NCBI RefSeq assembly: GCF_032854445.1
Contig: NC_088302.1
Span: forward strand, 19,587,338-19,651,337
Source of the DNA: Liolophura sinensis
Lineage: Eukaryota > Mollusca > Polyplacophora > Chitonida > Chitonidae
Reading direction: 5' to 3'
Length of the DNA stretch: 64,000 bases
The first letter of the stretch is position 1. The number at the start of each line of letters is the position of its first letter. Below are positions 3,401 to 44,673 of the stretch, in pieces. The position numbers and the translations under genes were made by a program. A model generated the notes under the pieces. The model was given only the letters and a program-made list of their open reading frames with translations, searched no databases and was not told the DNA's origin.

Positions 3401-6400
3401 CCAGAAAACCTTTGCCTGTGTGTTCAGCACTTAGCCAGAAAGTACCATGACCATAAATTTCGTCCATTTGTCCTGATTCTGAGAGTTTTTATGAGTTTAG
3501 AAAGGTGTTTTGAGGTTTGCTTGGAACATGGTATGATATTCTACTGAAAAATTGTTTCAGCACCAGAAACAATATTCTGTGACATTTATTTGCCTCTAAA
3601 AATGCACTTTTGTGGGCGAAATTTTAGGCCATTTAGGACAATACCAGGCTCCTTATTATTGGTCTCTTGCTTATGAAACCCTGATCTGCCAGCCAGGTTT
3701 GCGTAGCTTTGTTTTTGACTACAGAATGTCACGACGCTAGTATACAAGCAATGAGTCACATTTTTTGAAGTTTGACTGAAAAAGATCACAAAAGTACTGT
3801 GGCAGAATATTATCAAATGAAATGATTTTATTGATTAGTAACAACATATGATATAATCCTACCTTTCCTTTCCGGAACAAGGCTTTGATATTCTGGGGTT
3901 GAACCTTCAGTACTTCATCACAAGATTTTATAGCTGCGGCATAGGCTTCAACCTGAAAAATATTTGAATATAAAACTACAACCAAAACATTTTTGGTCTG
4001 AAATATTAATCATTAAACCTCAATCATGCTAACTTATCATTCCACTATTTTGTGCTTTATTTAACATTAGCCATGCTACATAAAGATTAAAACAGTCACT
4101 GTTTTAATTTGTGTTGCAATTATCAATATTTTTTCAATATTTGAGCTGCGTTTATCATAACAGTATTAGTCACCTTCATTAGTGCTGTACAGACCTTTCT
4201 GTGCTATAGTGACCTTTATTTTGTGCTGCACTGACCTCTATTTGTAATGTACTGACCTTTATTTTGTGCTGCACTCACTTTTACTTGTGTTGTACTGACC
4301 TCTACTTGTGCCGTACTGACCTTTATTTTGTGTTGCACTGACCTCTGTAATTTACTGACATTTATTTTGTGCTGCATTCACCTTTGTGTTGTGCTGCACT
4401 CACCTTTGTGTTGTGCTGACCTCTATTTGTGCTGTACTTACCTTTATTTGTGCTCAACTGACCTTTATTTGTGCTCAACTGACCTTTGTGCTGTACTGAC
4501 CTTTAATTGTGCTGCAGCTATGTTGTTGTAGCACTTCACCCGGGTGTCCACAAGCTGCTGAAGCAGACTGACATCCTCCTCAGAGTGACTTAAATTATCA
4601 TCGTTCAAAATCTTCAGAGCTCTGCAACAGGAAGGTTCACGTAAACAGTATCAGTAGTTTTCGAACTGGTTTGCACACAGATCTTTTTTTTATTGATAGC
4701 TTCACCGTCAAGTTAAATTTTGAAAGTATGGCCAAGTTCAAACCATACATGTACCATAATCATGGCACAACTGTACAGTATTATATGCTGCGCCATAATC
4801 ATGGCACAAGAGCACTATGTCACATGCTGCACCATAATCATGGCACAAGAGCACTATATCATATGCTGCACCATGGTCATTGCACAGCTGCACTATACCA
4901 TATGCTGCACAATGACCATGGCACAGCTGCACTATAGCATATGCTGCACCATAATAATGACACAATTGCACTATATCATATGCTGCACCATAACCATGGC
5001 AAATGAGCACTATATCATATGCTGCACCATAATCATGTCACAAGAGCACTAAGTCATATACTGCACCATGATCATGGCACAAGAGCACTATATCATACGC
5101 TGCACCATAATCATGGCACAACTGTACAATATTAAATGCTGTACCATGATCATGGCACAAGAGCACTATATCATACGCTGCACCATAATCATGGAACAAG
5201 AGCACCATATCATATTCTGCACCATAATAATGACTCAACTGCACTATATCATATGCTGTACCATAATCAGGCAAATGAGCATTTTATCATATGCTGCACA
5301 ATGACCATGGCACAGCTGCACTATATCATATGCTGCACCATAATAATGATACAATTGCACTATATCATATGCTGCACCATAACCATGGCAAATGAGCACT
5401 ACATCATATGCTGCACCATAATCATGTCACAAGAGCACTAAGTCATATACTGCACCATGATCATGGCACAAGAGCACTATATCATACACTGCACCATAAT
5501 CATGGCACAACTGTACAATATTATATGCTGTACCATGATCATGGCACAAGAGCACTATATCATATGCTGCACAATAATCATGGCACAATTGCACTATATC
5601 ACATGCTGCACCATAATACTGACACAACTGCACTATATCATATGCTGCACCATAACCATGGCAAATGAGCACTATATCATATTCTGCACCATAATCATGT
5701 CACAAGAGCACTAAACCATATACTGCACCATAACCATGGCATAACTGCACTATATCACATGCTGTACCATAACCATGGCACAACTGCACTAAATCATATA
5801 GTACACAATACGTTATCATATACTACACAATACGTTATCATATGCTGCACAATAATCATGGCAGAACGTTATCATATGCTGCACTATATCACAAATGCAA
5901 TGCATACATATCTCTCTGTTCGTTTGTAAAGTAACATTTTCATATCTTTGCCTTCTAAAGCAACCTTTCCATTAATCTACATCCATATACGATAATTTTC
6001 TGGGTATTGTATAAATGGGATTTGTCATTATAAGGCAGCAAATATGTATTTAATCCATATATGTATTTGATGGGTATTTTGTACCGTATTCAAGAATATT
6101 TCACTTATTCAACAGCGGCCAGCATTAGGGTGGGAGGAAATCGGAGGGAGCTTGGGGGAAAATACTCAACCATCTGCAGGATGCTGGAAGACCTTCAGAG
6201 GTATGACCATAGTTGAAGCCTCATAAGCTGGGACTTTAACTCATAGTGGCCGCATTGGTGAGAGGCTCTTGAGTCCTTGTTGTGCACTAGCAGGCTAACC
6301 ACTCTTTTCAGAGTTTAGATACAAACTGAGGATGGCAGAAACCCACACCCATCTGCACCTACTGGCACACCTTCACACGACAACCAGAAAGCAAGCCAGC

Positions 6401-9400
6401 ATGAGCTGGACAGTCGTTTCACTGGTGAGAGTCTCTTGAGTCCTTGTTGTGCACTAGCAGGCTAACCACTCTTTTCAGAGTTTAGATACAAACTGAGGAT
6501 GGCAGAAACCCACACCCATCTGCACCTACTGGCACACCTTCACACGACAACCAGAAAGCAAGCCAGCATGAGCTGGACATTCGTTTCACTGGTGAGAGGC
6601 TCTTGAGTCCTTGTTGTGCACTAGCAGGCTAACCACTCTTTTCAGAGTTTAGATACAAACTGAGGATGGCAGAAACCCACACCCATCTGCACCTACTGGC
6701 ACACCTTCACACGACAACCAGAAAGCAAGCCAGCATGAGCTGGACATTCGTTTCACTGGTGAGAGGCTCTTGAGTCCTTGTTGTGCACTAGCAGGCTAAC
6801 CACTCTTTTCAGAGTTTAGATACAAACTGAGGATGGCAGAAACCCACACCCATCTGCACCTACTGGCACACCTTCACACAACAACCAGAAAGCAAGCCAG
6901 CATGAGCTGGACAGTCGTTTCACTGGTGAGAGGCTCTTGAGTCCTTGTTGTGCGCTAGCAGGCTAACCACTCTTTTCAGAGTTTAGATACAAACTGAGGA
7001 TGGCAGAAACCCACACCCATCTGCACCTACTGGCACACCTTCACACGACAACCAGAAAGCAAGCCAGCATGAGCTGGACATTCGTTTCATTGGTGAGAGA
7101 CTCATCAGCCGTTGTGTGGCGTTTGCACCCAGACAGCAAATATTCCTAGCACCCAGACAGCAAATATTCCCCCAAAATAGCTGTTCTATTTATTTCTGTA
7201 GCATTAGCTTAAATACAGAATGTATTCAATTGTTATGTTTCCCACATTCTTTAATGTAAGTTAACCTTCATGGCCCTATAAGCACTGTTGCCTGCTATTT
7301 TCACCCAAGCCCTGGGAAAAGAGGAGGCAGGGGAGTCTTGAAAATTCTCTGCCTTAGATTGGGATTGAAGTGACACCTACAGTATACAATAATTCACAGT
7401 ACACAGTAAAAACTCGTCCGTCACTCACTTGGAATAGGAGTTAATCGCCCCAGTGTAGTCACTACGCCCAAATAAATAGTTCCCTCGCTCTCTCTTCTCA
7501 TCTCTGGGATAAAATAAAGAGAAGAACAGACAAGACATTTGAAAAGGTTTTAGTATTCAAAACCTTATTAAATGTAAGTTCAATACCTATGGTAAATTAC
7601 CTAAAATTTTGCTTCAAAAATTGCATTTCTAGAGGCACAACATGTCATGTAATATTACATTTGGTGCTGTAACTTACATTTTTTCAATGGCATATCATCC
7701 CACCTTCCAAACACATCCTAAAACACCTCTGTAAGATCAATATAAGATCAAGCTATGTGGCCAAAAATTAAATAAAAGTGGATTTTTTAAATAGAGGGAG
7801 GAAATGTATGGGAAGGTGAATACAAATCACACCCTTTAATGAATGGCCACTGACACCGACATAGACATCACACCTTTCACACTTAGCTCAAACACATACA
7901 CTAATATGCACAAAAGCATGTACTTGATTTGATAACAGGCAAATGTAAAAGCTAAACAAAAGATGTGTTAAGGCACAACGTGCCTTTAGGTACTGGATTC
8001 CACATGATAAAAAAATGAGACATGTTCACATTGAGAACATTTTGGGTCTCAATTAATATGACTACATCAGCTTACCCAAACTTGATTCTGTTCTCTACTG
8101 ACAACTTTGTGAGGTCCACAGGCTCATCTTTCTTCAGCAGTTCTAGTGTGTAGGTGATCTTAGAGTTAGCTGGTATGGAAGGGGGTCTGAAACATAATCA
8201 AATTGTGAAACAGTGAAAACCCAGCATAAACAGACAATAATAATGTCTTGAATGTTAAAACAGAATTAGGCAAATTGAACAAGGCAGCTCTTAAGTTTCT
8301 CCTTCTTTTGCAAATATCAGTTAGTTATTGGTCAACCTTTTTTAACACCTGGGCAACTAATATTTTGAAACATTCTGAGAGAAATGTGGGGTGTAGAGAA
8401 ATAATTTGCTCAGTTTTATGAAGCTTGCATCTTTCATGACACAAACAAATCATGTTTAGCATAATTTTCATAATAATTGCATACATTACTTCCACTGAAA
8501 AAAGTGCTTTAGTGGTTAAAAAGGTTGAAGATTTGCAATAAATTGTCTTCAGAACAAGGAAGGGTTTCATGATTAATAAAAAATCCTTTGAATAATAAAT
8601 TCACACATACATCACTGTGGATTCACACAAATCCACATAAAATTTCCTTCTGTACCCACATGTACATATACTGCACACTGAACTTCCCCATTATTGATTT
8701 CAATTTGCTCTGAAGTCAAGTTCGCAGTGATTATGAAGAGACAAGTGTGTAGGTTGTTGGATTACCTCCCCTGATTTCCATAGGCATATCTGTTATCAGT
8801 GGTCAGCTGGCAGACTTCTCCCACATCCATCAGAGCAGTGCACAAGTCCCAGGCTGACAACATCAACATCAACATCAACAATTTACAAAACTGACAAACC
8901 AAAAAGACTGTACTGATGTCTAACATGTTTGGTGAAATATGGCTCTATAGCACGACAGAGGCTGACAATAAAACTACATGTATAATGATTGCTATAGGTT
9001 TAAACATTCAGTCATGGGTGTGGTTGGGGGAGCGGGGAAGGGGGGATCACTCGCAGACTCATTTTATTTACCCTAAATGACCATAACTTTTGTCCATGAC
9101 TAACTTGCTCAGTTTTCCTTATTTTGAGAGTTAAATTGATCTTAAAAAGGTGTTTTGAGGTTTGGAACATGGGATGATATTCAACTAGAAAAATTGTAAC
9201 TTTCAGCACCAAATATGATATTTACCTAAATGTAGCTCTCACTCGTTGGTCATAAGTCAGGGGGTCTGTCAGTAGATTTACTCCACCCATAAATATGATT
9301 TATTTATTTGATTGGTGTTTTACGCCATACTCAAAAGTATTTCACTTATACGACAGCGGCCAGCATTATGGTGGGAGGAAACTGGGCAGAACCTGGGGGA

Positions 9401-12400
9401 AACCCACAACCATCCACAGGTTGTTGGCAGACCTTCCCACGCCCATAAATATGATTACTACTGAAAAGTATATTTATTTCTTATATGATTGATGGTCTAA
9501 TCCCTTACTGAAGAATTTTTCACTTCTACACTTATACTGCCAGACAGTTTCTTTTTATAAGTGGAGAAAACCACTGACTTTCGGCAGTTTACTGACAAAC
9601 TTTCTCCCATGTGATATATGTTACATTGGTGGAATAGTCTGCTGCCTACTTCATGTGTGGGACCACACAAGTGAGGACTATTCATCTCTTCTTGTCACCA
9701 ATGCCCTAAGAACAACAGATTCAAGGAAATCTTGTAAATTCCCTGCCCGTGAATGGGACTGAATGCATTTCTCAGGTGACCCATTGACTAAAAGTAAAGC
9801 AACTTATTCATGTAGCCATGACCTGCTCCCATGCTCTGGTAAATGTGTAAAATGAATCAATGAATAAATAAAGAAAATAAATGTATTAACCTTCAGGTAA
9901 TTAACACATACAAACAAAAGAAACTAGTATCTGCATATCCGAAATACCCCCTTCCAATCCCCAACATTTCCAAAAATAAAAGAAAAGAAAACTAAGAAAA
10001 CCTTATAGGGAATGATAGGACATCGTGTTGCCTAGGTTGGCTTCATATAAATTGTTTCATGAACCCTCCATGGTGTGCAACAATTCCACTACTGATACCT
10101 CCAGTTTGAATGGAACAATACAGTGTACAAGAAAACCCATTACTGCACTAAGTACCTGAATGTAAGTATTTATGAAAATAACTGCCCAACTGTAAATAAA
10201 TTTAACATTGCACTGTTTAGATTTTGGGGAATGGGGAAGATTTATTTATTTGATTGGTGTTTTATGCCGCACTCAAGAATATTTCACTTATAAGATGGCG
10301 GCCAGCATTATGGTGGATGGAAACTGGGCAGAGCCCGGGGGAAACCCACAACCATCTGCAGGTTGCCGGAAGACCTTCCCACGTACGGCTGAAGAGGAAG
10401 CCAGCATGAGTTGGACTTGAACTCACAGCGAAAGCATTGGTGAGAGACTCCTGGGTCATTACGCTGCGCTAGCACGCTAACCAACTTAGCCACAGAGGCC
10501 TCTGCATGGGGAAGATGTATGCTAAGTTTCTTAGACATAGATCCAGTACTTTAGGAAGAGTTGCATGGAAAGAATCTGAATACATGGAAAGGACTGTTAT
10601 GTAAAGTCCTAAATAATTACCCATGCACAAGTTATGACCAAAGGCAAAATGTACAGTAAGTTCAATTGAAATTGGCACACTGGTTTGGGAGGAGATGGAT
10701 GAATAGAATTGCATCTACACAGACAGGCGGGGTGATTCCAGTATACTTCCCTTCACTTCGTTGAAGGGGGTATAATAAGTAAGTAATCAGTACATAAACC
10801 ACCACAATGGACCAATGCTTTCATATCGATTGCATAAACTACCACAATGGATCAATGTTTTCTAACTGATTACACAAACCACCACAATGGACCAATGCTT
10901 TCATACTGATTATATAAACCACCACAATGGACCACTGCTTTCATATTGATTACATAAACCACCACAATGGACCAATGCTTCCATACTGATTACATAAACC
11001 ACCACAATGGACCAATGTTTTCATATTGATTACATAAACCACCACAATGGACCAATGCTTTCATATTGATTACATAAATCACCACAATGGACCAATGCTT
11101 TCATACTGATTACACAAACCACCACAATGGACCAATGCTTTCATACTGATTACACAAACCACCACAATGGACCAATGCTTTCATACTGATTACATAAACC
11201 ACCACAATGGACCAATGCTCTCATACTGATTACATAAACCACCACAATGGACCAATGCTTTCATATTGATTACATAAACCACCACAATGGACCAATGCTT
11301 TCATACTGATTACATAAACCATCACAATGGACCAATGCTTTCATATTGATTACATAAACCATCACAATGGACCAATGCTTTCATATTGATTACATAAACC
11401 ACCACAATGGACCAATGCTTTCATAGTGATTACATAAACCACCACAATGGACCAATGCTTTCATATTGATTACACAAACCACCACAATGGACCAATGCTT
11501 TCATACTGATTACATAAACCACCACTGATTACATAAACTACCACAATGGACCAATGCTTTCATATTGATTACATAAACCATCACAATGGACCAATGCTTT
11601 CATATTGATTACATAAACCACCACAATGGACCAATGCTTTCATACTGATTACATAAACCACCACAATGGACCAATGCTTTCATATTGATTACACAAACCA
11701 CCACAATGGACCAATGCTTTCATACTGATTACATAAACCACCACAATGGACCAATGCTCTCACACTGATTACACAAACTACCACAATGGACCACTGCTCT
11801 CACACTGATTACATAAACCATCACAATGGACCAATGCTTTCATACTGATTATATAAACCACCACAATGGACCAATGCTTTCATATTGATTACATAAACCA
11901 CCACAATGGACCAATGCTTTCATATTGATTACATAAACCACCACAATGGACCAATGCTTTCATACTGATTACATAAACCACCACAACGGACCAATGTTTT
12001 CATACTGATTACACAAACCACCACAATGGACCAATGCTTTCATACTGATTACATAAACCATCACAATGGACCAATGCTTTCATACTGATTATATAAACCA
12101 CCAAAATGGACCAATGCTTTCATACTGATTACACAAACCGCCACAATGGACCAATGCTTTCACTCTGATTACATAAACCACCACAATGGACCAATGCTTT
12201 CATACTGATTACACAAACCACCACAATGGACCAATGCTTTCATACTGATTATATAAACCACCACAATGGACCAATGCTCTCATACTGATTACACAAACCA
12301 CCACAATGGACCAATGCTCTCATACTAATTACACAAACCACCACAATGGACCAATGCTCTCACACTGATTACATAAACCACCACAATGGACCAATGCTTT

Positions 12401-15400
12401 CATACTGATTACATAAACCATCACAATGGACCAATGCTTTCATATTGATTACATAAACCATCACAATGGACCAATGCTTTCATACTGATTACAAAAACCA
12501 CCACAATGGACCAATGCTTTCATACTGATTACATAAACCACCACAATGGACCAATGCTTTCATACTGATTACACAAACCACCACAATGGACCAATGCTTT
12601 CATACTGATTACACAAACCACCACAATGGACAAATGCTCTCACACTGATTACATAAACCACCACAATGGACCAATGCTCTCATACTGATTACATAAACCA
12701 CCAAAATGGACCAATGCTTTCATACTGATCACATAAACCACCACAATGGACCAATGCTCTCATACTGATTACATAAACCACCACAATGGACCAATGTTTT
12801 CATACTGATTACACAAACCACCACAACGGACCAATGCTTTCATACTGATTACATAAACCACCACAATGGACCAATGCTTTCATATTTATTATTGCTACCT
12901 CAGAATAAACTAAGTTACCTTGGATCACATCCCCATCTCCAAGTGTGAATGTTATACTGTCATGTTTGTCCACCACTGAGCCATCTTCCAGGGTACCAAC
13001 TGTTCTCAGTGTCACCTGGTCTCCATACGATGGTCTTGAATCTGGGTTTTCAGATGGTTTGATCACCTGGAGGCAAATGACATCAAAATCATCCCACTGA
13101 TAACCTCAATCTCCATCATATTTTCATCCCTGTTATGACTATCCCACTCCAGTCAGTCAGAGCTGCAGCCATTCTGAACAGAATATGCATCTTTTGTATT
13201 TATGATAAACATATCCATGAGCCAACAGTTTTATTCCTCGCCACCCCCATCCCCCATGAACCATTCTCATTGTGAACGCATGTTGTGACATAACCAATAT
13301 CAAAATCTACCACTATTTTCCACAGAGGACGATGTCACCAGTAAATAACAAGGAACATGTGCAGGCAGAGAAATCTCAAAATATCCTCAGCCCGAGACCT
13401 GAGTCTATAAATTTGTTACATACACTGACAAGTATTACAATAGAACACAGAACATGATAATATACATTTTTTTTTTAAAACAAACACATTTGATGATGAA
13501 ATACACTCAAACTATTAAAACATAGTATATGTGGTTAAAACCTATTTCTAAAAAAAAAAAGGGATATCATTTAATGCTGTTAGGGTTTCCTGGATGCCGG
13601 GCAAGTTGCAGAGCTCCATGTGAGTAATCACTTCAGGACATGTACTTACCTATCACATGTGAAAAAATGACACATGATAAAAATGAGATGAGACAATATA
13701 AATACAATGTAGTATTTCTAATTTATCTCAGAATCACCTTGTAGGTGGCAAAGGTAAGACAGTAACCTGTGGATGGTAATACATTTCCTTCTGGCTCTAC
13801 CCGGTTTCCTCCAACCATAGTGCTGATTGTACAAGTGAAATATTCTTGAGTACGGCATAAAACACCAATCAAATAAACAAAGAATCATCTGTCCCCACAG
13901 TTGTAATGGGGTTTCTCTGGCTCTCTACAAAGGGAAGTAAATCTTGCTTCTCATAAAACAGCAATGCATTATACCCTCTTGAAAAACAATCCCAGCTATC
14001 ATTATTCATAATGGCTTGTTATGTTATTGAAATCACTGGTATTGTTATTCATATAAGTAGAGGGCACTGCTGTTTTATGAGTTGCAAGATCTGCTTTCTT
14101 TTGTGAATGGGTGAAGTCCATTACACGCAACACTTGCCTTTTTCAGGAGCATCCCATTTCCCAGTATGTCAAGAGGTTTAGGGTCACTCTCCTTTTCCTC
14201 CTGCTGACCATTTTCTACACCCTTCTGAGTAGGGTCTGCTGGACCGTTCTTCACTTGTTTACCCCCTGCTTCTGAACAGCCCATCTTATCATCTGGGGGC
14301 TGTTCACTATTGCTAATATTTTCATGTCCTTTCATTTTATTTTCAGTTTCACTTTGCCTTTCTCTGTCTGACACAGTCTGACTTTCACTTTCAATACTGT
14401 CTTTAATTTTCTCACTGACACTTGTGCTTAAATCTGAACTAATGTCTGAGCTTTGTTGATTTTCATTATTGAGAGAATCTGTTCCTTCTTTAGGGGGGTT
14501 ATTTTCCTCGATTGATTTATTATTACAATCATCACCAGAAACAACATTGTAATTCCCATCCTCATCCATCGTTATATCTGGAATATTTTCCTCTGCATTC
14601 TGCCCCAATCTGCTGTCATCATCATCATTAGAACTGCCAGATATTTCAAGCGCAGATTTCCCTTTCTGAAAACCAGTGGACGAGGCATCTCCAGATTCTG
14701 TCACCCTCCCATTCACTGATGTTTGGCGGTCTTCTGACACTGGGGTTAAGGGAAAATTTTAAAACAAACCCATACATATATATATATATATATATACATG
14801 TATATATATATATATATAGTTCACAAGTAATAGACAACATTACAATGGTGACACTGATTAGCTCAGATGTCATTTCACTTTCGCTTTCATTGTAGTAGAA
14901 AATCTACAATTGCCGAGACTGCATATGTGACATGGTTTAATTTATCTATCTAAATTAGTCCATCCAGATGAATTCAATGTGCCATTTAAAAATTCTGACA
15001 TTCATCGTAACACTGAGTCCATTAACGCGTCTCAAAACACATGGTGCAGATTTCAAACTCCCATCTCCTTCCCACTTAAAGCAATCTACTTCACCTCCTC
15101 TGCTCATTTATATGTAATTTCATGGTGGAATCTCTAACACTATCCTCTTAATTTACTATCCTCGCCTATGAAACTAATTAACTCGTGGCGTCTAAGACAG
15201 TTAAATCTACTTATATATCTTGACATGTAACATTTATAGACTTAAAAGAGATATATGTATATATATATGTAGACCTACTGAGCTCATCTGCCTTGTTCCA
15301 TAATTTTTTTATTCACTCTAATTCTCTAAAAATTGACAATTGGAGTCCATCTGCGTCCTCTACCTTCTCTTCTTCCTTTTCGACAGTAATTACATCGGAT

Positions 15401-16234
15401 CATCTAATGCAAAAAAAAAAAAAAAAAAAAAGCTTTTCTACAGACAGTGTTATGTTGTTGTTGTATCCTCACTATCTCATGACTCGACACTTGAAGCTAT
15501 GCTTTCTCCTACACATGGCAAGTGTTTTCGCCTTTGAGACACTGTCGGTTTAAAATACTCACTTATCTTGCTCTTTTCAACTCTGTGAAATTGGATAGTC
15601 AACTTCTGATCGGCCTAACAATCCTTTCTTAACGCTGTCAAGCTCATGTGAATCAGCATGCGATGTTGATCGCGGACAGCAGTCAAAGCCTGTTACGACA
15701 TTGGTCTTTGAACTTTGCGACAATGATCTCTTTGGCGACATCGACAACAACAACAACAACGTCGACGAAAACAAGAGATGAGTCTCTCGACACAGGAGGA
15801 CCGTGTTTACACGGAGTAAGCTTTAGAAGGTTGAATCCCACGCCCTCGGCTATTTCAAGGTAGGGTTTCTTGACGCCTTCAAGTAAATGAAATTATCCAG
15901 GAACAAACGTATTCATTTCCACGAAACAACCATGTGTCGGAAACTGAGCATCCACAATTGAGGTAACTCCAGGTGGCTACTTCAAGTCCTCTCTTTATGC
16001 TGGGCTGGCGGAGTATCGTAGCCACAGGAGGAACCAATGATAAACCATACACCGATTCACTCCATGTCCAATAAGTCCTTTCTAAACAATGACTGTAGTC
16101 CAAAAGTGGTGTCAACTTTGACTCTCACTTCTCAGCTCGCCTGCACATTCGCCCGGAATGTATATTCCATTCAGTAATCGGACACCAGCCCCATATTCAC
16201 GATACGACAGACCATTTCTATACAAGGCGGCCAT
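435..16234 (-). CDS. FKBP8: FKBP8 (FKBP38) co-chaperone, lacks its last exon
   Basis: Peptidyl-prolyl isomerase-like co-chaperone, in vertebrates anchored in mitochondrial outer and ER membranes, binding Bcl-2 and Hsp90. Coding exons (transcript order): 14739-14138, 13066-12919, 8853-8766, 8186-8076, 7503-7429, 4621-4501, 3952-3863, 2859-2782, 566-435; phases agree at every join. An acidic Ser/Asn/Glu-rich N-terminus (about 200 aa) ends in LDILGNGMLLKK, the FKBP8 signature before the FKBP fold. The FKBP domain is about residues 200-299 (FTLGDGDVIQAWDL, MDVGE, YAYG). TPR helices follow (RGNYLF, CYNNIAAAQLK, NIKALFRKGK), then a charged exon with EMYKKMFG. The C-terminal transmembrane exon lies left of position 1. 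The start is uncertain: exon 14739 begins with TG, and an upstream exon ending in A at 16129 would create ATG and would also read in frame with an ATG at 16234. Intron 14137-13067 uses a GC donor. About 482 aa are visible. Confidence 0.9.
567..1986. other. FKBP8 intron, mostly without recognisable features
   Basis: AT-rich intronic sequence. About 1085-1180 resembles the terminal part of MITE family R1 (CCTCTAAAAATG core followed by a TTTTCAGGGCGTTCAGAC-like end). I see no coding exon or RNA gene here. Confidence 0.5.
1987..2248 (+). mobile_element. SINE1, full-length tRNA-derived SINE
   Basis: The head has Pol III box A (TGGCTCAGTCGGTTAG) and box B (GAGTTCAAGTCC). The body has GGTTGTGGGTTTCCCCCGGG and the conserved GTGAAATATCCTTGAGTACG block, ending ACACCAATCAAATAAATAAA. 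This is the best full-length reference copy in the window. Confidence 0.85.
2281..2560. mobile_element. SINE3-like element, older copy
   Basis: Shares the pattern of the better-preserved copy at 37270: TGAGTGCTTGGGGCTTAACA start, TGAGGAGCCATTAGGTG, CCTTCTTGTGG, a CACTGAAGTATCATCCTGA block, then AACCAGTCCTGTTTCC and AGCGCTGAGTG. It directly follows the SINE1 copy at 1987-2248. Confidence 0.6.
3116..3241 (-). mobile_element. SINE1 fragment
   Basis: Inverted tail (TTTATTTATTTATTTATGTGATTGGTGTTTCA), CTATTTCACTTATACGAC and GGCCAGCA, truncated after ACCATCCACAGGTTAA. It lies in the FKBP8 intron between exons 2859-2782 and 3952-3863. Confidence 0.75.
3449..3650 (-). mobile_element. MITE family R1 copy
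   Basis: Shares blocks with other R1 copies: CTGATTCTGAGAGTT, AGGTGTTTTGAGGTTTG, GGAACATGGTATGATATTC, TTTCAGCACC, CCTCTAAAAATGCAC and CGAAATTTTAGG. Minus orientation relative to the copy at 17545-17763. Confidence 0.6.
4180..4510 (-). repeat. 21-bp minisatellite repeating a FKBP8 exon end and donor
   Basis: On the FKBP8 strand the exon ends GCAGCACAATTAAAG, then GTCAGTAC at 4500. Immediately downstream come about 15 degenerate units of around 21 bp, of the form AGCACAAATAAAGGTCAGT. Many keep a plausible AAAG|GT donor, including a consensus AAAG|GTAAGTA copy near 4443-4432. The array runs to about 4180. Confidence 0.85.
4735..5890. repeat. 39-bp tandem array, about 29 units
   Basis: Unit of 39 bp (core ATAATCATGGCACAAGAGCAC, then TATATCATATGCTGCACC). 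Because 39 is a multiple of three, long frames stay open on both strands; these are artefacts, not genes. Higher-order copies exist: the variant CTAAGTCATATACTGCACC recurs at 5049 and 5438 (389 bp, about 10 units), with a related variant at 5711. Intronic in FKBP8. Confidence 0.9.
6055..6256 (-). mobile_element. SINE1 copy whose head continues into a tandem array
   Basis: Reverse-oriented SINE1: GATGGGTATTTTGTACCGTA, TCAAGAATATTTCACTTATTC, GGCCAGCATTAGGGTGGGAGG and AACCATCTGCAGG. The tRNA-head portion starting near 6257 is continuous with the 167-bp array. Confidence 0.75.
6257..7100. repeat. 167-bp tandem array made from a SINE1 head, 5 units
   Basis: The marker GGTGAGAG recurs at 6257, 6424, 6591, 6758, 6925 and 7092, an exact 167-bp period. 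Units are nearly identical. Each contains reverse-strand SINE1 head and body pieces (CCAGCATGAGCTGGAC, TGGTGAGAGGCTCTTGAGTC, CTAGCAGGCTAACCACT), so the array arose by amplifying part of the SINE1 copy at 6055. Intronic in FKBP8. Confidence 0.9.
7590..7760 (+). mobile_element. MITE family R1 copy
   Basis: Shares AAATTACCTAAAATTTTGC, GCATTTCTAGAGG, TTTGGTGCTGTAACTTACA, ATCATCCCACCTTCCAA and the AAACACCTCTGTAAGATCAA block with the copy at 17545. Lies in the FKBP8 intron between exons 7503-7429 and 8186-8076. Confidence 0.55.
8332..8528. mobile_element. MITE family B copy
   Basis: Starts TCAACCTTTTTTAA and ends TTAAAAAGGTTGA, forming terminal inverted repeats. The interior (ATGAAGCTTGCATC, GACACAAACAAATC, TTCCACTGAAAAAAGTG) matches the element at 54491-54683. 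About 200 bp, no coding capacity. Confidence 0.65.
9069..9235 (-). mobile_element. MITE family R1 copy with intact terminus
   Basis: Begins TACCCTAAATGACC, the terminal inverted repeat of this family. It continues with ACTAACTTG, TTTTGAGAGTT, AAAAAGGTGTTTTGAGGTT, ATGGGATGATATTC and TTTCAGCACCAAAT. Confidence 0.65.
9286..9456 (-). mobile_element. SINE1 fragment with 15-bp target-site duplication
   Basis: 5'-truncated SINE1 at 9301-9441, flanked by the direct repeat CCCATAAATATGATT at 9286-9300 and 9442-9456. The duplication shows it inserted by target-primed retrotransposition as an already truncated copy. Confidence 0.85.
9480..9800 (-). mobile_element. SINE2 copy
   Basis: Shares a series of blocks with 21660-21970 and 31715-32050: TGAAGAATTTTTCACTT, GACAAACTTTCTCCCATGTGA, ACATTGGTGGAA, CTTGTCACCAATGCCC, AAATTCCCTGCCCGTGAATG. 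It appears to end in a degraded tRNA-like head. Confidence 0.55.
10231..10516 (-). mobile_element. SINE1, full length with target-site duplication
   Basis: Full SINE1 at about 10241-10505 from inverted (AAAT)n tail to tRNA head (GCTAACCAACTTAGCCACAGAGGCC). It is flanked by ATGGGGAAGAT at 10231-10241 and 10506-10516. Confidence 0.9.
10789..12885. repeat. 40-bp satellite-like array, about 52 units
   Basis: Unit of 40 bp (ACCACAATGGACCAATGCTT, then TCATACTGATTACATAAACC), repeated head to tail with a few percent divergence. One irregular partial unit lies near 11520. No unique spacers. It occupies half of the FKBP8 intron between exons 8853 and 12919 and stops about 33 bp from the splice donor at 12918. 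Every unit carries a CCAAT pentamer. Confidence 0.95.
13765..13881 (+). mobile_element. SINE1 3' fragment
   Basis: AACCTGTGGATGGTAATAC, CCCGGTTTCCTCCAACCATA, GTGAAATATTCTTGAGTACG and ACACCAATCAAATAAACAAA. Body and tail only, no tRNA head. In the GC-AG intron of FKBP8. Confidence 0.75.
14740..15929. other. 5' intron of FKBP8
   Basis: Between the acceptor at 14740 and the divergent promoter. It holds TA-rich simple repeats at about 14775-14818 and 15250-15270, an A-tract near 15411-15431, and a short CAA/CGA-rich stretch near 15740-15770. Two open frames of 60-80 codons here show no family resemblance. Confidence 0.5.
16129..16234 (-). other. FKBP8: Possible FKBP8 first exon
   Basis: Proposed 5' exon of FKBP8, by inference. 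It ends in GCTGAGAA followed by the donor GTGAGA at 16128. Joined to the acceptor at 14739 it makes ATG TCA GAA. An ATG at 16234-16232 (MAALYRNGLSYREYG...) is open and in frame with that join, so it could extend the N-terminus by 35 residues or be upstream leader. No homology supports the extension. The exon lies in one arm of the inverted repeat at the divergent promoter. Confidence 0.35.
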
Positions 16235-16314
16235 TAGTCTCGTCTTTTCAGGTTTAACTTGCGCCATCTAGGAACGATAACTTTTTGAAGACCCATAACT
16301 GTGGCGAAGGCAAA

Positions 16315-16343
16315 ATGGCTGCTGCTTTATCGATGACTGTGAG
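16315..16343 (+). other. SNRNP35: Possible SNRNP35 5' leader exon end
   Basis: The sequence up to ACTGTGAG followed by GTGAATTT at 16344 forms a candidate donor that could splice to the strong acceptor TTACTCTTACAG at 18091, just before the SNRNP35 start codon. An ATG at 16315 opens only a very short frame (stop after 10 codons), so this is leader sequence. Inferred from splice signals only. Confidence 0.35.
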
Positions 16344-16615
16344 GTGAATTTGGTTCTAGTGTGTCCTTACTAGGTGGAATATATATGAGATGTTGCATGT
16401 GCTGGCAAGCTGAGAGCTAAGAGCCAAAGTTGACAGCACTTTTGGACTGCAGCCATTGTTTAGAAAGGACTTAGCGGATATGGCATGAATCAGTGTATGG
16501 CTTACCGTTGGTTGCCCCTGTGGCTAGGATACCCTGCCAATCTCTGTATAAAGAGAGGAGTTGAAGTAGCCTCCTGGGGCTACAGTTGAGGATGTTTCAG
16601 AATGTCTTCACATGG

Positions 16616-17544
16616 GGCTCACCACAATGTGACAGTCTCCACTGTGAAATACGACATTGCACAAAACTCTTAGAAGGAGGTTTTAACGTTGAGCCTGGTC
16701 TTAGGTGGTAGTGGTAAAGTGACGTCAATTAATAGAAAAACCAACTTTTCACAATGAACATTAGAGAGTGGGATCAGTGACTGATGAAGGCATCAACCTA
16801 GTCTTTACAGCAGGATCAGGTCGCTTTGTACCCAAACTGTTTCGTACCAGGTTACCTCATTCCATATTTACATTTAGCGATCTTGCACTGTATGTGTGTC
16901 ATACAGTAACTACTGTAAAGACATAGGGCCTACTGTATGCAGGTATTGTACACTGATTCATGCCACAGTGATAACTAATATAATATGTACCTTGTTTTTA
17001 GTCTTGTTTAAACAGATTGCTTTAACTTGGTCAATGATCTGGTTAGAACAAGGGATATAATCCTGTTTCTGGTTGAGAAGGTTCTCACATGAAATATTGA
17101 AACGTGAACTCCTGAAATCTTGACCTATTTGTTATATACTTTAACAATATTTTTGCGTATCAGTATTGGTATTGGATTAAGTAACCCCCTGTGCTTAATC
17201 TCTGAGCACAGTGGTATTGTTAATCCGATCCCATAAACTGAGGTGTTCCCATAAACTGAGAATCAACAACGTTCTTGGTAAGTGTATCCAAATCTGTTGA
17301 AATAATTTCCTAAACCTGAGGAAAGATGCGATTATTTATCTTCAGTGTACGAATTAGCATTTCTGATGTACATAACCATCATTGAAGAGCAACTGTGAGA
17401 GATAAGCCTGAGGTAAATTGCAAGAATTTTCTATTAAAATGCTTGATGTAAGAGTTGAATGATAAAAACATGGAATAACAAGCGCATGCATCAGTGAAAT
17501 GAAATGAAGCCTTTATAAAAGAATGTAAAACTGTCAAATTGTAC
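16616..17544 (+). other. SNRNP35 5' intron, left part
   Basis: Unique AT-rich sequence. A palindromic CRE-like TGACGTCA lies at 16720-16727. No exon or RNA gene is apparent. Confidence 0.4.
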
Positions 17545-17763
17545 TACCCTAAATAACCTAAAGTTTTGCCCAGAAAAGTGCATTTTTAGAGGAAAATAAA
17601 TTTCACAAAATATTTTATATTAGTTTTGGTGCTGAAACTTACAATTTTCCAGTAGAATATCATCCCATGTTTCAAGCAAACCTCATAACATCTTGCTAAA
17701 ATCAGTAGAACTCTCAGAGTCAGGACAAGTTAGTAATGGGTGAAATTCATGGTCATTAGGGTA
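17545..17763 (+). mobile_element. MITE family R1, complete reference copy
   Basis: 219 bp starting TACCCTAAATAACC and ending GGTCATTAGGGTA, giving imperfect terminal inverted repeats of about 13-14 bp. The interior has CATTTTTAGAGGAAAATAAA, GGTGCTGAAACTTACAATTT, ATCATCCCATGTTTCAAGC and CTCTCAGAGTCAGGACAAG. No transposase frame: a non-autonomous DNA element. Confidence 0.75.
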
Positions 17764-17951
17764 TGTTTGCTGTGAGTGCAAGTCCAGCTCATGTTGGCCA
17801 TACATGGGAATGGCTTCCAGCAACCTGCCGATGGTTGTGGGTTTCTGCTGGGTCCTGCTAGGTTTCCTCCCACCATAATGCTGGCGGCTGTCATATAAGT
17901 GAAATATTCTTGAGTATGACGTAAAACACCAATCAAATAAGTAAATAAATA
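17764..17951 (+). mobile_element. SINE1 copy without complete head
   Basis: Begins in the box B region (GAGTGCAAGTCCAGCTCATG) and runs through GGTTGTGGGTTTC, CCACCATAATGCTGGCGGC and GTGAAATATTCTTGAGTATG to the CAATCAAATAAGTAAATAAA tail. It abuts MITE R1 exactly. Confidence 0.8.
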
Positions 17952-18092
17952 GGGTATTTGCTCTTTCTATAGGCCCTCAGTCTTGCAGTTGCTTGTTGAA
18001 TTTCAGTGTTCTGTTTATATGCTTGTTGATTGGTCTAGACAATAGCATCAAATATGTTAACCGATAATAAAAAGTGTGTTTACTCTTACAGA

Positions 18093-18806
18093 ATGATGGA
18101 AAGGTCAAGAGGTGGCTGGAGTAGCCTGTGTACACAGTACTCTCCCCTGGCTGCTGGCAGTATAGATGGCACTGATGATTATCCTCATGACCATGGGATC
18201 ATCAGAGCCATGGAAGCCAAATACAAACCTAACAAAGCCGTTATCGGAAATCCAGAGACAACCATTTTTGTGAGCAGACTGAATCCCCGAACTACGGAAG
18301 ACACTCTGACAAAGACCTTTTCACGATTTGGTGAAATAAAGCGCCTGAGATTAGTAAGAGATATTGTAACAGGATTTTCAAAATGTTACGCGTTTATAGA
18401 ATACTATGATAGGACATCGGCTGAGGATGCTCACATGGATGCCTATAGACTTGTTGTGGATGATAAGGAAATATTTGTGGACTTCGAAGTAGAAAGAACC
18501 ATGAAGGGATGGGTACCGAGGCGATTAGGAGGGGGTTTTGGGGGCAAGAAAGAGTCAGGTCAACTTCGGTTTGGAGGGCGTGACAGACCTTTCCGAAAAC
18601 CCATAGAAGTGGCAATGGGCGAGAGAGATAATAGACATGACAGTAAGTTTGGACGTTACCGGTATAATGATAGGCCTGAAGTTAGACGCCGTGACACTGA
18701 TAGAGATCATAGAGCCAATAGACCCTCACACAGAGAGAGAGACCGCTGGCCAGACCAGAGAAGGCGGTCACAAAAATATGAGCGAGACAGGAGCGAGACT
18801 AGATAG
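18093..18806 (+). CDS. SNRNP35: U11/U12 snRNP 35 kDa protein
   Basis: Component of the U11/U12 di-snRNP of the minor (U12-type) spliceosome, nuclear. A single coding exon of 237 aa (human about 246). The start is the ATG at 18093, directly after the acceptor TTACTCTTACAG (AG at 18090-18091). The first ATG of a tandem pair is used; the second would also fit. Diagnostic segments: AGSIDGTD, PNKAVIG, one RRM with RNP2 IFVSRL (58-63) and an RNP1-like KCYAFIEY (97-104), then ERTMKGWVPRRLGGGFGG, KKESGQLRFGGRDRPFRKP, and an Arg/Asp/Glu-rich tail. RNP1 has Cys where the family has Gly. A candidate poly(A) signal AATAAA lies at 19415-19420. Shares a divergent promoter with FKBP8. Confidence 0.96.
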   Translation: MMERSRGGWSSLCTQYSPLAAGSIDGTDDYPHDHGIIRAMEAKYKPNKAVIGNPETTIFVSRLNPRTTEDTLTKTFSRFGEIKRLRLVRDIVTGFSKCYAFIEYYDRTSAEDAHMDAYRLVVDDKEIFVDFEVERTMKGWVPRRLGGGFGGKKESGQLRFGGRDRPFRKPIEVAMGERDNRHDSKFGRYRYNDRPEVRRRDTDRDHRANRPSHRERDRWPDQRRRSQKYERDRSETR

Positions 18807-19420
18807 CACTTGGACAGAACAGAACTGCAATGTACTTGTATCATGTAACTGGGTCATAGTTCGAATTTCACTATTTTTTTTTAATGAGAGCAGTTATAGT
18901 GCATTTTAAAAATGCCAGTGTGTAAACTTCAAGTCTCATTATTTAAATGGAAATTATAGCTTATTAACTAAATAAGCATTATATATGACCTGAAAGATAT
19001 ATCATTTGCTTTTTGCATATTAGTATTCAAGTGTATGTATCATACAGTGTTTTAAAATCACTCCAGTTGTCATCGTTAGCAGTTAATTTCATTGGCTACT
19101 TCCATATATGGTCAGGCTATTGCTGAATATGGATATGAACGTGGATACTTGTTATTTTAATATTAACTGAATTATGTGTATGTGCCATGGAAAGAGAGTT
19201 CATTAAAATATTGAATACATATTTGAAAAGGGGGATATGGGACATTTTTTGTTAACACATAAATGTGCATTATAATTAGGCTATCAAAATTTAATTCACT
19301 TTCTTAATTTGATTTAAAGGCTTACAGAATTGGCAGCGACTGGCTGGTAGTGGAGGTAAAGAGATCATGTGTTAAGAACTGTATTAAACTTGTTCTATGC
19401 TTGAGAATGCTTCAAATAAA
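18807..19420 (+). other. SNRNP35: SNRNP35 3' untranslated region (inferred)
   Basis: AT-rich non-coding sequence after the stop, with the first convincing AATAAA at 19415-19420. No other feature seen. Confidence 0.45.
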
Positions 19421-40208: not shown

Positions 40209-40646
40209 CCCTATCTTTGGTGATATTCTCCCTGACCCCCGAGATGATTAAATGGGTAAACCTAACAATGAATGATCAAGGATAATCACCGCTCTTTGTC
40301 TGTCAAATTTCAACTTCACCAGACTGTAAAATAAACTCTGAGGATGACGTCACGGGTTCGAGGAAGTGAAAGTCTTCCGCACTGCAAGAATGTCACGCGC
40401 TGATTAGTGGATACTTTAGCAAAGTAATTATTGATTTAAGTCTCCTAAACGTAATATTTTTTCTTGGAATAACCAGTAGTGCTGTCTTCATTTAAATGAA
40501 TCATATTGTTTTCAAGTATCTTGGACGTCATTTCCGGTCATTGCACCACGTGAGTTGTAAAGTCTGTTTATTTGTGTCTCACGACCACGTTTTGACAGCT
40601 GCAGATTTAATATTTCTCCCTTTTTTTGGATAGTGATAAGCAAGCC
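40209..40646. promoter_or_regulatory. Divergent promoter of ABHD17 and C9orf85 homolog
   Basis: 438 bp between the two start codons. It contains a perfect palindromic CRE TGACGTCA at 40345-40352, a second CRE-like GACGTCA at about 40524-40530 beside an ETS-like TTCCGG, and an E-box CACGTG at 40547-40552. No TATA box. The motifs are seen directly; their function is inferred. Confidence 0.6.
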
Positions 40647-43600
40647 ATGAGTACCCAGAGAGGCAACAATAACAAAACACGCAGGCAGAAACATCAAAAC
40701 AAGACTGCCTTCAAAAACAATCTCCATGACACGAGCGGAAAGACGAAGAAGATCAACAGCGTGGTGGTGGCGGGTGTTTGTCAGCACTGTAAAGATATCA
40801 TCGACTGGAAAATCAAATACAAGAAGTATAAGTTATTGTCGCAACCTAGGACATGGTAAGATTTTAGTAGTTTAGTTTTTATAGGCCTGTATTACGTGTG
40901 GTATTATATTATGGAGTTGTATGTCCGCGTGTTCGTCGATCCGGCCGTCTGTAAAGTTTTTGGAACTTTCCTCCCACCATGATGCTGGCGAAATATGTAT
41001 AAGTGAAATATTTGTGAATACGGCCTAAAACACCAGTGAAATTAAAAAGAAAATAAAGAAAGTTTTTGGCCTTGCCAAGTAGCAAAGCGTGCACTTTCGA
41101 AAGCTAAACAGGTGCTCGATAGCCCAGGTAGACTAGGCTTGTGTACGAAACATAGAGCTTAGCTTCGCATATGTAGGGCCTATGAGGGACGCAAGTACAC
41201 TGGAGTTTCGCGTTGGGCGCTCGCATATATACCAGAAGTTGGGATTAGAACCTTAGAGAAACACAGCCTTGATGCATGAATGTTGGGTGAATAAAGCATT
41301 TTTCTAACCCCAACTTCCAGTATATGCGTGAGCGCCCCCATGCGGAACTCCCATGAACTCGTGTCCCTGGCCAAGCTACATTTTGAACATAGGCCCAGTC
41401 TAGCTGAGCTATGGCACCCCGTTTTGCTTTCAAACTGTTTTCTCTGAATGAAATTGTCTGTGTGGAAGTCTGTATAAGGGAAGCTGGGCTATACGTTTCG
41501 TATGTAGGCCTCGTTTAGCTGAACCAGGGGCGCCAGTGTGAAATAGGATTTCAATCTCATATGTTTTGTTTCGTGATGTGAGACATGTTGCATGTTTCTG
41601 TTTCTTCTACGATGTATTTGATATAGGCACTGATGTCCCGCTATAGGGCTTATAATTGGGCTCTTAGTGCAGAGTCACTGAAATGATGTACATCCCACTT
41701 TGTACTTTTGATGGCATCCCATTTTGCATAGGCATCATCTGCTCATACTGGACTGGTGGAGTATTATGACCAAAGTGGAATCAGACAGCAAACCTTAAAC
41801 TGTGTCTCACCAAGTTCAATAGCTTCCTCCTAAATGATGTGCCACACAAGACTCAGCTGTGAGTTTTAAAGCAAAATGGCCCATTTTAAAAGATAGGATG
41901 TCAAAAGAGATAAAAAGTAAATTTCAAAATTATGTACCCAGGAAGAGAGTTTATTAATGTAAGCATACTGACATTTCAAAAGGAGCCAGTTTTGAGTTAA
42001 TGCCAAAGGGATGTAACTCTTACTGAGGGTTCAGGGAGATAACCTCTGAGGGACATACTCTAAGTTTATTTATATATGATGTTAGAACATGTCTTTCCTC
42101 AGAGAGGCAATGAAAAATATGTACATATGCTCTTTATTGACAGCATAAAATGTCTGCAGAAGACTGTGAAGCAGGCGTACTACACCATCTGTGTACCATG
42201 TGCACAGGCCCAGTCCATGTGTCAAAAGTGTGGGGAACAGAAAGACATTGTGCTGCAGTAAGTGTTCTGCTTAATAAGGGCAGTTGTATATAACAGTTAT
42301 CTTGTGCACATCATAATGAAATAAATGACAGTGTAATAACTGGTATTTGACATTTGCGGAAATCGCGGATGTGGTTTTGAGAATAGGGGTCACAGATTGT
42401 GAGAAGATCTCTAAACTTACACTGGATTACATGGATGATGGTTGCACCTTTTGATCTGTACATGTACTGATTTTAAAGCTCTGTCTGACAATGTATTTCA
42501 AAACTAAAATTCATTGGGTATTTTGTATACATAGAAGGAAATCAGCTCATGAGTGGCAATTACATTTGTATCAAACAAAAAATGCCGAGTAAAGTGACCC
42601 AGATTTTCGCAGTCCTGTTATACTTAGTCTCTAAATGGTGTGGATCTTTTTTTTTTTTTTATTTATGGATTTTATTTTCCAGTCATATGTCCGGTTATAA
42701 TAGCAGAGATTTCAATTTATTAGGCTTTTTTTTTTTAGAATTTGTTCACAAAAATAAATAATCAAATGTTTAAGGCATGAAGGTGGGTATATATAGATCA
42801 GACTTGTAAGTAATGTAAGGTCTCTCAGAATTGTGAAATTACCTCAACCTAATGAACCACAAAAAACATGTTATTTCTTATGTGTGTGTATGATTATTGT
42901 TTGGAATATGAACTTAATTATGCTGTGTGAAGAGCCTCTCAAGAACATTTTTCTTTTCCAGGCCATCATTATCAGCTTCGGATGAGGCGTCCAGAGATGC
43001 CATGTTACAGTTTGAATTAAAACAACTCACAGAAAGACAGAGGCGTAAGTCTCATGAAAGCTTGGATATAATGAAATGCTATAAAACAAATTGACCAGAA
43101 TATGAAAATACAACATGTAATCAGTTGCTTATTAGATGTGTGAGAAAAGTAAAAATAATAGTCTTTGTGTTAGCAGTCAATGTCATCAGTACCCTGAAGA
43201 GTTACCTCCCCTAATTCTCCATTACTACTTGTTCATTCTCCTCTGACACAACTCTCATCTTGCAGAGGCGTTGATGCATGCTGTTGCTGAAAAATCACTG
43301 AATGAACAAGAGAGTGAATTTGGACCAAATTTTACCAAATTTGTTGATAGAGATCGAGCTTTAAGTGTGGAGAATATTTATGGTCCACTTGTGGGCAATC
43401 AATTTGTTTACTTATTTATTTGATTGGTGGTTTACACCATTCACAAGAATATTTTACTTATATGACAGCGGCCAGCATTATGGTGGGAGAAAAGCGGGCA
43501 AAGCCCAGGGGAAACCCACAGTCAACCATAGTTTGCTGGAAGACCTTCCTATGTATGGCTGGAGGAGAAGCCAGCATGAGCTGAACACGATCAACGATGC

Positions 43601-44673
43601 GAGGTACATGCGTCACTGAAGTAGATTATATTTTGTTGAAAATGTAACGTCTGGTAGTCTTACAAGCTGCCTTTGTGTAAGTTATGTGAATGTTAATGAA
43701 AAGACTCGACTTTGACCAATGAAAACTCCTTTGTTCAGTGATCAGTGGCTAACATGGATGTCACTGTTCAGTTGTATAAGAAAACCAGGTATTTCTTTTG
43801 ACAGAGCTTTGGGTCAGTAGATTCAGATGGTTTGTCATGGAGAGAGTACTCTGGCAAAATTGTCCAACAAACTCAGGCTATTGAACAGAATGAGTCGTTA
43901 GTTAATACAACATAACAAAAGATTTCACTAAGAATCGGTTTTCCGGATTCTAAGAGTTCTAGAAATCTTAAGAAGGTATTTTGACGTGTGTTTGGAAGGT
44001 AGAATGATATCCTCCAGGAAACATGCGCATTTCAGCATTAGTAAAGATGTTCACCTCTAAAAATGCACCAATGTGGTTGACATGAGTTCACGTCCAGCTC
44101 ATACTGGCTTCTGATCCGGCTGTATGTGGGAAGGTCTGCCAGCAATCTGCAGATGGTGGTGGGTTTTCCCTGGGCACTGCCCGGTTTCCTCCCACCATAA
44201 TGCTGGCCGCAGTTGCATGAGTGAAATATTCTTGAGTACAGTGCAAAACACCAATCAAATAAATAAATGTATCAAATAAACAAAGAAATAAAAATGGTCT
44301 TTGTGGGACGAATTTTTAGGACAAACATAGTATATAATTGTTTCTGTTCATAGGCTCTTTCTTCCGGCTCCAGGCCTCAGGGAAGTTGACAAACAATGCT
44401 CTCGAGTCAGCGGTAGGAGAGCAAGACAACCATACAGAGAGTTCCCACAACAACAGTGATGATGAAGCTAGCCCCTCCCATGGTAATGGCTGTCATGGTG
44501 GAGGTGATGTTCATCATGCTCAGAGTGAAGAAAGTTCTGATGGAGACTTCTCTGATAGATGCCATGACGACAGCTTGTGCAACAGTGATGAAGACGGTTG
44601 TGATAATGTTTGTTCTTATAGCGTCTGTCCAGACGACAGTGGGAAGGACAGTACAAAGGCAGTGTTAAGATAA
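40647..44673 (+). CDS. C9orf85: C9orf85 homolog, CxxC-rich protein with acidic tail
   Basis: Homolog of the conserved eukaryotic protein of unknown function known in human as C9orf85. Exons: 40647-40855, 42144-42257, 42962-43044, 43266-about 43382, 44354-44673 (stop TAA). The N-terminus (KHQNKTAFKNN, KTKKIN) and four CxxC pairs (residues 45/48, 70/73, 86/89, 96/99) suggest a zinc-binding fold. The tail is rich in Ser, Asp and His. Exons 1-3 join cleanly (TG+C, CA+G). Exon 4 (from ALMHAVAEKSLNEQ) has no strong donor; G|GTCCAC at 43383 gives the phase needed by the last exon, and AGA|GTGAAT or TTAA|GTGTGG also fit. Without a donor, translation would stop in a SINE1 25 bp further on. Predicted about 280 aa, longer than the human protein. 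Candidate poly(A) signal at 44705-44710. Confidence 0.85.
40955..41064 (+). mobile_element. SINE1 3' fragment
   Basis: TTTCCTCCCACCATGATGCTGGC, a deletion, then GTATAAGTGAAATATTTGTG and AACACCAGTGAAATTAAAAA. In intron 1 of the C9orf85 homolog. Confidence 0.7.
41186..41367. repeat. Inverted repeat with about 65-bp arms
   Basis: Arm 41186-41250 (GGGACGCAAGTACACTGGAG ... CAGAAGTTGGGATTAGAA) is the imperfect reverse complement of 41302-41367 (TTCTAACCCCAACTTCCAGT ... CTCGTGTCCC), with a 51-bp loop. Weaker similarity extends outward about 20 bp. It is likely a fold-back element or MITE and could form an RNA hairpin in the C9orf85 pre-mRNA. Confidence 0.75.
41370..42143 (+). other. C9orf85 homolog intron 1, right part
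   Basis: Unique sequence up to the acceptor CTTTATTGACAG. No further feature recognised. Introns 2 (42258-42961) and 3 (43045-43265) are also unremarkable apart from T-tracts near 42648 and 42726. Confidence 0.4.
43408..43605 (-). mobile_element. SINE1 copy abutting C9orf85 exon 4
   Basis: Inverted tail (TACTTATTTATTTGATTGG), AAGAATATTTTACTTATATG, CGGCCAGCATTATGGTGGGA and AGCCAGCATGAGCTG, truncated before the tRNA head. It begins within about 25 bp of the last plausible exon-4 codon, and its tail supplies an in-frame TGA if the exon is not spliced. Confidence 0.8.
43930..44335 (-). mobile_element. MITE R1 split by a SINE1 insertion
   Basis: R1 sequence 43930-44065 (GATTCTAAGAGTTCTAGAAA, GGTATTTTGACGTGTG, ATGATATCCTCC, CACCTCTAAAAATGCACC) resumes at about 44288 (ATGGTCTTTGTGGGACGAAT, TTTTAGGACA), with SINE1 between. 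The join restores the R1 order seen at 3449-3650. Confidence 0.75.
44066..44287 (+). mobile_element. SINE1 inside MITE R1
   Basis: Starts around the box B region (GAGTTCACGTCCAGCTCATA) and runs through GGTGGTGGGTTTTCCCTGG, CCACCATAATGCTGGCCGC and GAAATATTCTTGAGTACAG to the CAATCAAATAAATAAATG tail. It must post-date the R1 element it interrupts. Confidence 0.85.

Follow-up and report, generated by a model that had tools for sequence, protein, structure and literature searches.

Genes flanking the palindrome

In the 64-kb stretch of the Liolophura sinensis genome analysed here (hereafter, the window), an imperfect palindrome sits between an FKBP8-like gene on the left (− strand) and SNRNP35 on the right (+ strand). 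The open reading frame at 18039-18803 matches the U11/U12 small nuclear ribonucleoprotein 35 kDa protein (phmmer, E 5.1e-73), and the main coding exon of this gene (U11/U12 35K; 18092-18806, +), whose acceptor was read from the sequence, starts at 18092, immediately 5′ of ATGATGG. A first coding exon is predicted at 16315-16343 (+), at the inner edge of the palindrome's right arm, extending from an ATG to a GAG|GTGAAT donor. It splices in frame to the exon at 18092 (MAAALSMTVR-MMERSRGGW...), and its donor ranks second among the 149 GT sites in 15900-18080, as scored, here and for all donor ranks below, by a generic splice-donor PWM.

The N-terminal coding exon of the FKBP8-like gene (14138-14739, −; ORF 14075-14758), for which the ccccag acceptor and the exon end were read by eye, carries an LDILGNG-type motif that we take to be typical of FKBP8, while a downstream exon at 12812-13105 has an FKBP_C match above the Pfam cut-off. 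In a comparison with known structures, this downstream exon recovers FKBP8 at E ~1e-4, behind two plant-type FKBP chains (~6e-11 and 7e-11). The N-terminal exon apparently ends at a GC-AG type donor, AAG|GCAAGT, at 14136-14137 (−), likewise read by eye. Directly after it lies a hairpin (13927-14104, with 69-nt arms that are 75% complementary), which looks like a MITE and whose Rfam matches to miRNA families fall far below the gathering scores. The span of the gene also harbours tandem arrays at 10791-12891 (40 bp x 52), 4753-5799 (39 bp x 27) and 6256-7103 (167 bp x 5, 98%).

Two positions are possible for the first exon of FKBP8. An uncertain candidate at 16129-16267 (−) runs from an ATG to a GAA|GTGAGA donor ranking 5 of 130 GT sites, and joins, without a shift of frame, the exon that begins at 14739; an alternative leader ending at 15563 has an equally good donor (rank 4 of 130). 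The three best-ranked of these 130 sites are those at 16506 and 16623, in and just past the right arm, and at 15095, whereas the one at the mirror position of the SNRNP35 donor is weak (rank 37 of 130). Judging from donor ranks and reading frames, a start beside the palindrome's centre is thus plausible for SNRNP35 and ambiguous for FKBP8.

The window as a whole is CpG-depleted (observed/expected 0.39). The ratio reaches 0.6-1.2 in 200-bp windows starting at 15500-16200 and amounts to 0.18-0.35 in those starting at 16300-16600. Because CpG is also raised at 14900-15400 and within the SNRNP35 coding exon, it is no sharp mark of a single start.

Arms and centre of the palindrome

Alignment of the left arm (15930-16235, +, 306 nt) with the reverse complement of the right arm (16314-16615, −, 302 nt) yielded 231 identities in 296 gap-free columns (78%), beside 16 gap columns. 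The best-conserved core, 16006-16148 on the left and 16397-16539 on the right, aligns without gaps and is 84% identical (120/143), and the best 170 columns contain 142 matches (83.5%), in agreement with the value of about 83% given in the preliminary description. The local palindrome score of 280 compares with a maximum of 50 in 500 controls, which, like those for the symmetry, third-copy and divergent-promoter tests below, were first-order resamplings rather than exact dinucleotide-preserving shuffles. The window is repeat-rich, and the highest score for 438 pairs of real segments taken elsewhere in it was 162. In a scan of centres placed every 50 bp, this palindrome was the strongest in the 64-kb window, followed by independent ones scoring 153 (opposed SINE-like copies), 137 (a tandem array) and 105 (an imperfect palindrome at 41092-41437). 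Facing mirror-image stretches of 260 to 300 bases between two animal genes are therefore real, and the palindrome originally described at 15930-16615 is borne out by the control scores. Chance similarity or an assembly artefact, in favour of which no evidence emerged, has next to no likelihood as an explanation, since the former is refuted by the gap between 280 and 50, and the 22% divergence of the arms rules out a recent chimaeric or hairpin read.

The limits of the symmetry are less sharp than its existence. When a profile of one arm was used as the query, the other arm was recovered at 15945-16204 and 16342-16596, respectively. Symmetry is significant for 16149-16200 / 16344-16396 (p = 0.0005) and marginal both for the outermost stretch, 15930-15962 / 16584-16615 (p = 0.057), and for the innermost one, 16190-16240 / 16309-16355, which covers the predicted SNRNP35 exon 1 (p = 0.038), so that the outermost 30 nt and the innermost 40 nt are the marginal parts of the arms. 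No significant symmetry was detected when the outer edge was tested more broadly, with the outermost stretch included (p ~0.5), or in the 78-bp centre (16236-16313; score 11, with shuffles averaging 13.3; p = 0.81). Taken together, the limits of the single-arm searches and the marginal p values at the edges define a secure palindrome of two arms of ~255-260 nt, separated by a centre that measures at most ~137 bp; the earlier figure of about 300 bp on each side is loosely true, but only this shorter part of it is secure. Conservation is lower at the inner end than in the core (54/80 versus 120/143, Fisher p = 0.007, for regions picked after inspection of the data). The left arm contains 11 CpG and the right arm 3, and nine differences between the arms are CpG-type transitions.

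A 17-nt exact, inverted copy of right-arm positions 16481-16497 occurs at 16949-16965. It was considered as a third tandem copy and rejected, as the match fails to extend (2.2 bits, E 2.1).

At the inner edge, the arm alignment pairs ATGGCTGCTGC (right) with ATGGCCGCC (left), with the GTGAAT donor kept. This pairing would be expected if the two genes, unrelated housekeeping genes, had sister first exons, that is, if a one-way gene start (start codon, exon 1 and early intron 1 with a repeat fragment) had been copied in reverse and become the start of the neighbour. Given that the exon-1 match is only marginal (p = 0.038), we lowered our estimate for this scenario and now regard it as unlikely. 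By the same token, the proposal that the two divergent genes start from homologous, mirror-image sequence holds in part: homologous arms do lie between divergent genes, and a predicted in-frame SNRNP35 exon 1 is located at the right arm's inner edge, but the symmetry over that exon is marginal and the FKBP8 first exon is ambiguous.

A third copy of the arm

Searching the 64-kb window with a profile built from the two arms (nhmmer) revealed a third, diverged copy of arm positions ~57-165 at 41735-41839 (+; C3, ~105 bp), scoring 25.3 bits (E 2e-7); the controls, 20 windows that were resampled and one that was reversed, gave 6.1 bits at best. In single-sequence searches, the left arm found C3 at E 8e-7 and the right arm at 0.0026, and the reciprocal searches with C3 recovered the left arm at E 2.8e-7 and the right arm at 0.0017. 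The exons on either side of C3 correspond to successive portions of DUF2039 (a split Pfam match), which places C3 in intron 1 of an unrelated gene, presumably C9ORF85 in human terms.

Since ~105 bp of the arm recur in the intron of an unrelated gene, the arm contains, or is, a dispersed repeat, so that at least some of it is repeat DNA; C3 is the older copy. The Jukes-Cantor (JC) distance between the arms is 0.195, compared to 0.49 and 0.55 from the arms to C3 (105 columns). In these columns, the two arms agree with each other but not with C3 (L=R) at 29 sites, while the alternative groupings have 9 and 6 sites. Given this closer kinship, either the common ancestor of the arms is more recent than the one they have in common with C3, or sequence has since passed between the arms.

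How far C3 extends along the arm depends on the scoring. Permissive scoring stretches the match over the whole left arm (191/286 columns), although the flanks of C3 are not significant, showing no significant similarity to the arms in four tests (p = 0.16, 0.33, 0.55 and 0.93). A three-sequence profile gave a weak fourth match at 62773-62845, to arm positions 19-88, whose 9.2 bits (E 0.014) are borderline against a control maximum of 8.1. No second palindromic copy was found within the 64 kb, and an exact-pattern scan of viral_contigs with the arm core returned none, this being a non-animal collection that says nothing on copy number. The preliminary description named many copies with defined termini, as in a transposon, as what would refute it; the recurrence of part of the arm at 41735-41839 is a step in this direction, but as a single diverged copy without defined ends.

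The presence of a dispersed repeat within the arm might suggest that one repeat was inserted twice independently, in opposite orientations by chance, on either side of the promoter, much as copies of an unrelated SINE-like repeat oppose each other at 43412-44266. We consider this quite improbable, because the arms start and stop at mirror-equivalent points, include inner sequence that is undetectable in C3 and differ far less from each other than from C3.

Several further repeats and one gene arrangement were observed in the window. Intron 1 of the DUF2039 gene also contains the second imperfect palindrome mentioned above (41092-41250 and 41302-41437, with a 51-bp centre), which has an extra partial copy at 41471-41537 and lies ~300 bp from C3. 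The DUF2039 gene (+) is arranged head to head, across 40248-40640, with an alpha/beta-hydrolase gene (−; Pfam match just under the cut-off). As ABHD17B and C9orf85 are, we assume, also head to head in human, this pairing may be old. The dispersed SINE-like repeat occurs at 43451-43673, 43996-44227, 10281, 38389, 2198, 17905, 9339, 19894, 6098 and other positions. With an E limit of 0.5, its profile gave 24 matches, including the two sequences from which the profile was built; 20 of the 24 are at E 3.4e-5 or better, five of these 20 lying inside the 167-bp tandem array. Exact-pattern scans for this repeat in viral_contigs and genome_contigs, non-animal collections that are uninformative on copy number, returned none.

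Tests for constraint and function of the symmetry

Two kinds of product encoded by the arms were considered and set aside. Coding arms are unsupported, as the 23 mismatches between the arm cores are split evenly over the three codon phases (8/8/7) and none of four translated arm frames has a Pfam match; the mismatches between the left arm and C3 (18/10/10) do not differ significantly by phase either (chi-square ~3.4, 2 d.f.). The right arm had been thought to have lost the open frames of the left arm, which is only partly right, because the frame at 16022-16177 (+, 51 aa) has an open counterpart at 16356-16523 (−, 55 aa). A structured RNA was rejected, given that none of the 13 Rfam matches at E up to 5 in 13000-19000 falls inside 15930-16615.

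The symmetry itself could be functional, with the arms forming a mirror promoter that is maintained by selection for the same elements in both directions or by gene conversion between the arms. The ungapped 143-nt core with its 84% identity is consistent with this, and so is the strong grouping of the arms against C3, which is also expected under conversion. However, sites identical in the two arms match C3 in 58/87 cases, compared to 15/18 for sites at which the arms differ (p = 0.26); the former being no likelier to match C3, no class of conserved sites is visible. The most symmetric part of the palindrome, its core, is situated ~125-265 bp from the centre and thus away from the predicted start. 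A YY1-driven mirror promoter is a weak candidate: within the palindrome, an exact match to the YY1-like pattern (a generic consensus) occurs in the right arm only, and the window shows no clear enrichment, with 17 motifs found against 11.9 expected and 7 of 100 shuffles reaching 17. Moreover, the other divergent promoter that we examined, the ABHD-like/DUF2039 interval at ~40248-40640, has no palindrome (best score 25 over 32 centres, with shuffles, scored as the best of 4 centres, averaging 29). Considering all this, a functional mirror promoter appears improbable. The preliminary description favoured regulatory constraint, which finds no support in these tests: they show no constraint, CpG is distributed asymmetrically between the arms (11 versus 3) and the other divergent pair lacks a palindrome. 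We found no sign in them that mirror symmetry is needed for two-way transcription.

Origin of the palindrome

Our tentative preference is that DNA containing a repeat underwent an old inverted duplication, at what are ordinary divergent gene starts. Under this scenario, ~260-300 bp that included a fragment of an older dispersed repeat, and perhaps the margin of a gene start, would have been duplicated in inverted orientation, and the copies would now oppose each other, between FKBP8 and SNRNP35, across a centre in which symmetry was lost or never present. SNRNP35 would probably start just to the right of the centre and splice out through the right arm, whereas the start of FKBP8 would lie at some point on the CpG-rich left. 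As a promoter, the locus would be an ordinary divergent one, its mirror symmetry recording the origin of the DNA without being known to serve a need. The data show the palindrome with its secure part, C3, the closer kinship of the arms and the uneven CpG content; exon 1 and the transcription starts, as well as duplication over transposition, are what we infer.

Several observations argue for the inverted duplication. The distance between the arms (JC 0.195) is much smaller than that from either arm to C3 (0.49 and 0.55), as would be the case if duplication, or conversion between the arms, took place once the repeat was there. Their homology continues well beyond the segment recognisable in C3 and reaches about as far as the donor of the predicted exon 1, this exon keeps the frame and has a donor ranking 2 of 149, CpG observed/expected is 0.6-1.2 on the left against 0.18-0.35 on the right, and a target-site duplication was not seen. 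On the other hand, equal distances would result from a transposon subfamily if its palindromic copies were younger than C3, inverted-repeat structures are not rare in the window (41092-41437 and 13927-14104), and the symmetry over exon 1 is marginal (p = 0.038). Furthermore, an inner end less conserved than the core is the reverse of what a constrained duplicated gene start would show, and CpG, being raised also at 14900-15400 and in the SNRNP35 exon, does not mark a start sharply.

The main competing explanation is a decayed fold-back or MITE-like element that was inserted between the genes and whose centre subsequently came to serve as a first exon or promoter; the copy at 41735 would then be a fragment belonging to the same family. 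This explanation is a serious contender that we rate slightly below the inverted duplication. The third copy in an unrelated intron fits such an element, and so do the permissive alignment of C3 over the whole left arm (with C3 flanks that are not significant), the weak fourth match at 62773-62845, barely above the control maximum, and the other palindromic elements in the window, namely the one at 41092-41437 with its partial extra copy at 41471-41537 and the hairpin at 13927-14104. In addition, with exon-1 symmetry marginal, the gene start need not belong to the repeat. What speaks against the element is that C3 is significant just for arm positions ~57-165, with flank tests at p = 0.16-0.93, and that no target-site duplication was found at the outer ends, where the best shared flank word, 7 nt, lies off the ends (the outer ends are themselves uncertain, and an old insertion could have lost it). 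The lack of a second palindromic copy in 64 kb also speaks against it, though weakly if the family is of low copy number. The marginal homology of exon 1 moved the odds from duplication towards the fold-back element; on balance, we lean slightly towards local inverted duplication over a captured fold-back element.

Comparison with known systems

The palindrome resembles inverted (fold-back, head-to-head) segmental duplications in its opposed homologous arms, which score far above chance (280 against at most 50 in controls), in its short asymmetric centre and in that no target-site duplication was found. It differs from them in being small (~300 bp), old (22% diverged) and located at predicted gene starts, and in that one arm segment recurs elsewhere in the window. 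With fold-back or MITE-type elements bearing long terminal inverted repeats, it shares the palindromic form, the short length, the lack of a detected coding signal and the content of dispersed sequence. However, neither a target-site duplication nor, within 64 kb, a second palindromic copy was found here, and the only firm other copy covers about one-third of an arm. The whole structure is an inverted repeat, a property that does not discriminate between a duplication and an element. Bidirectional promoters of housekeeping gene pairs are common in animals, and the locus is akin to ordinary ones in its divergent genes with a CpG-rich region between them, but here the flanks are homologous to each other and CpG enrichment is mainly on one side of the centre. 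In a literature search, none of the abstract openings was about a promoter made by inverted duplication, which we do not offer as a claim of absence.

If a neighbouring gene can acquire its promoter through the inverted copying of a gene start, this locus would be a small, datable example of how a two-way promoter originates. If the palindrome is instead a captured fold-back element, it would be another case of repeat DNA at a first exon. Whichever the origin, the symmetry need not be functional.
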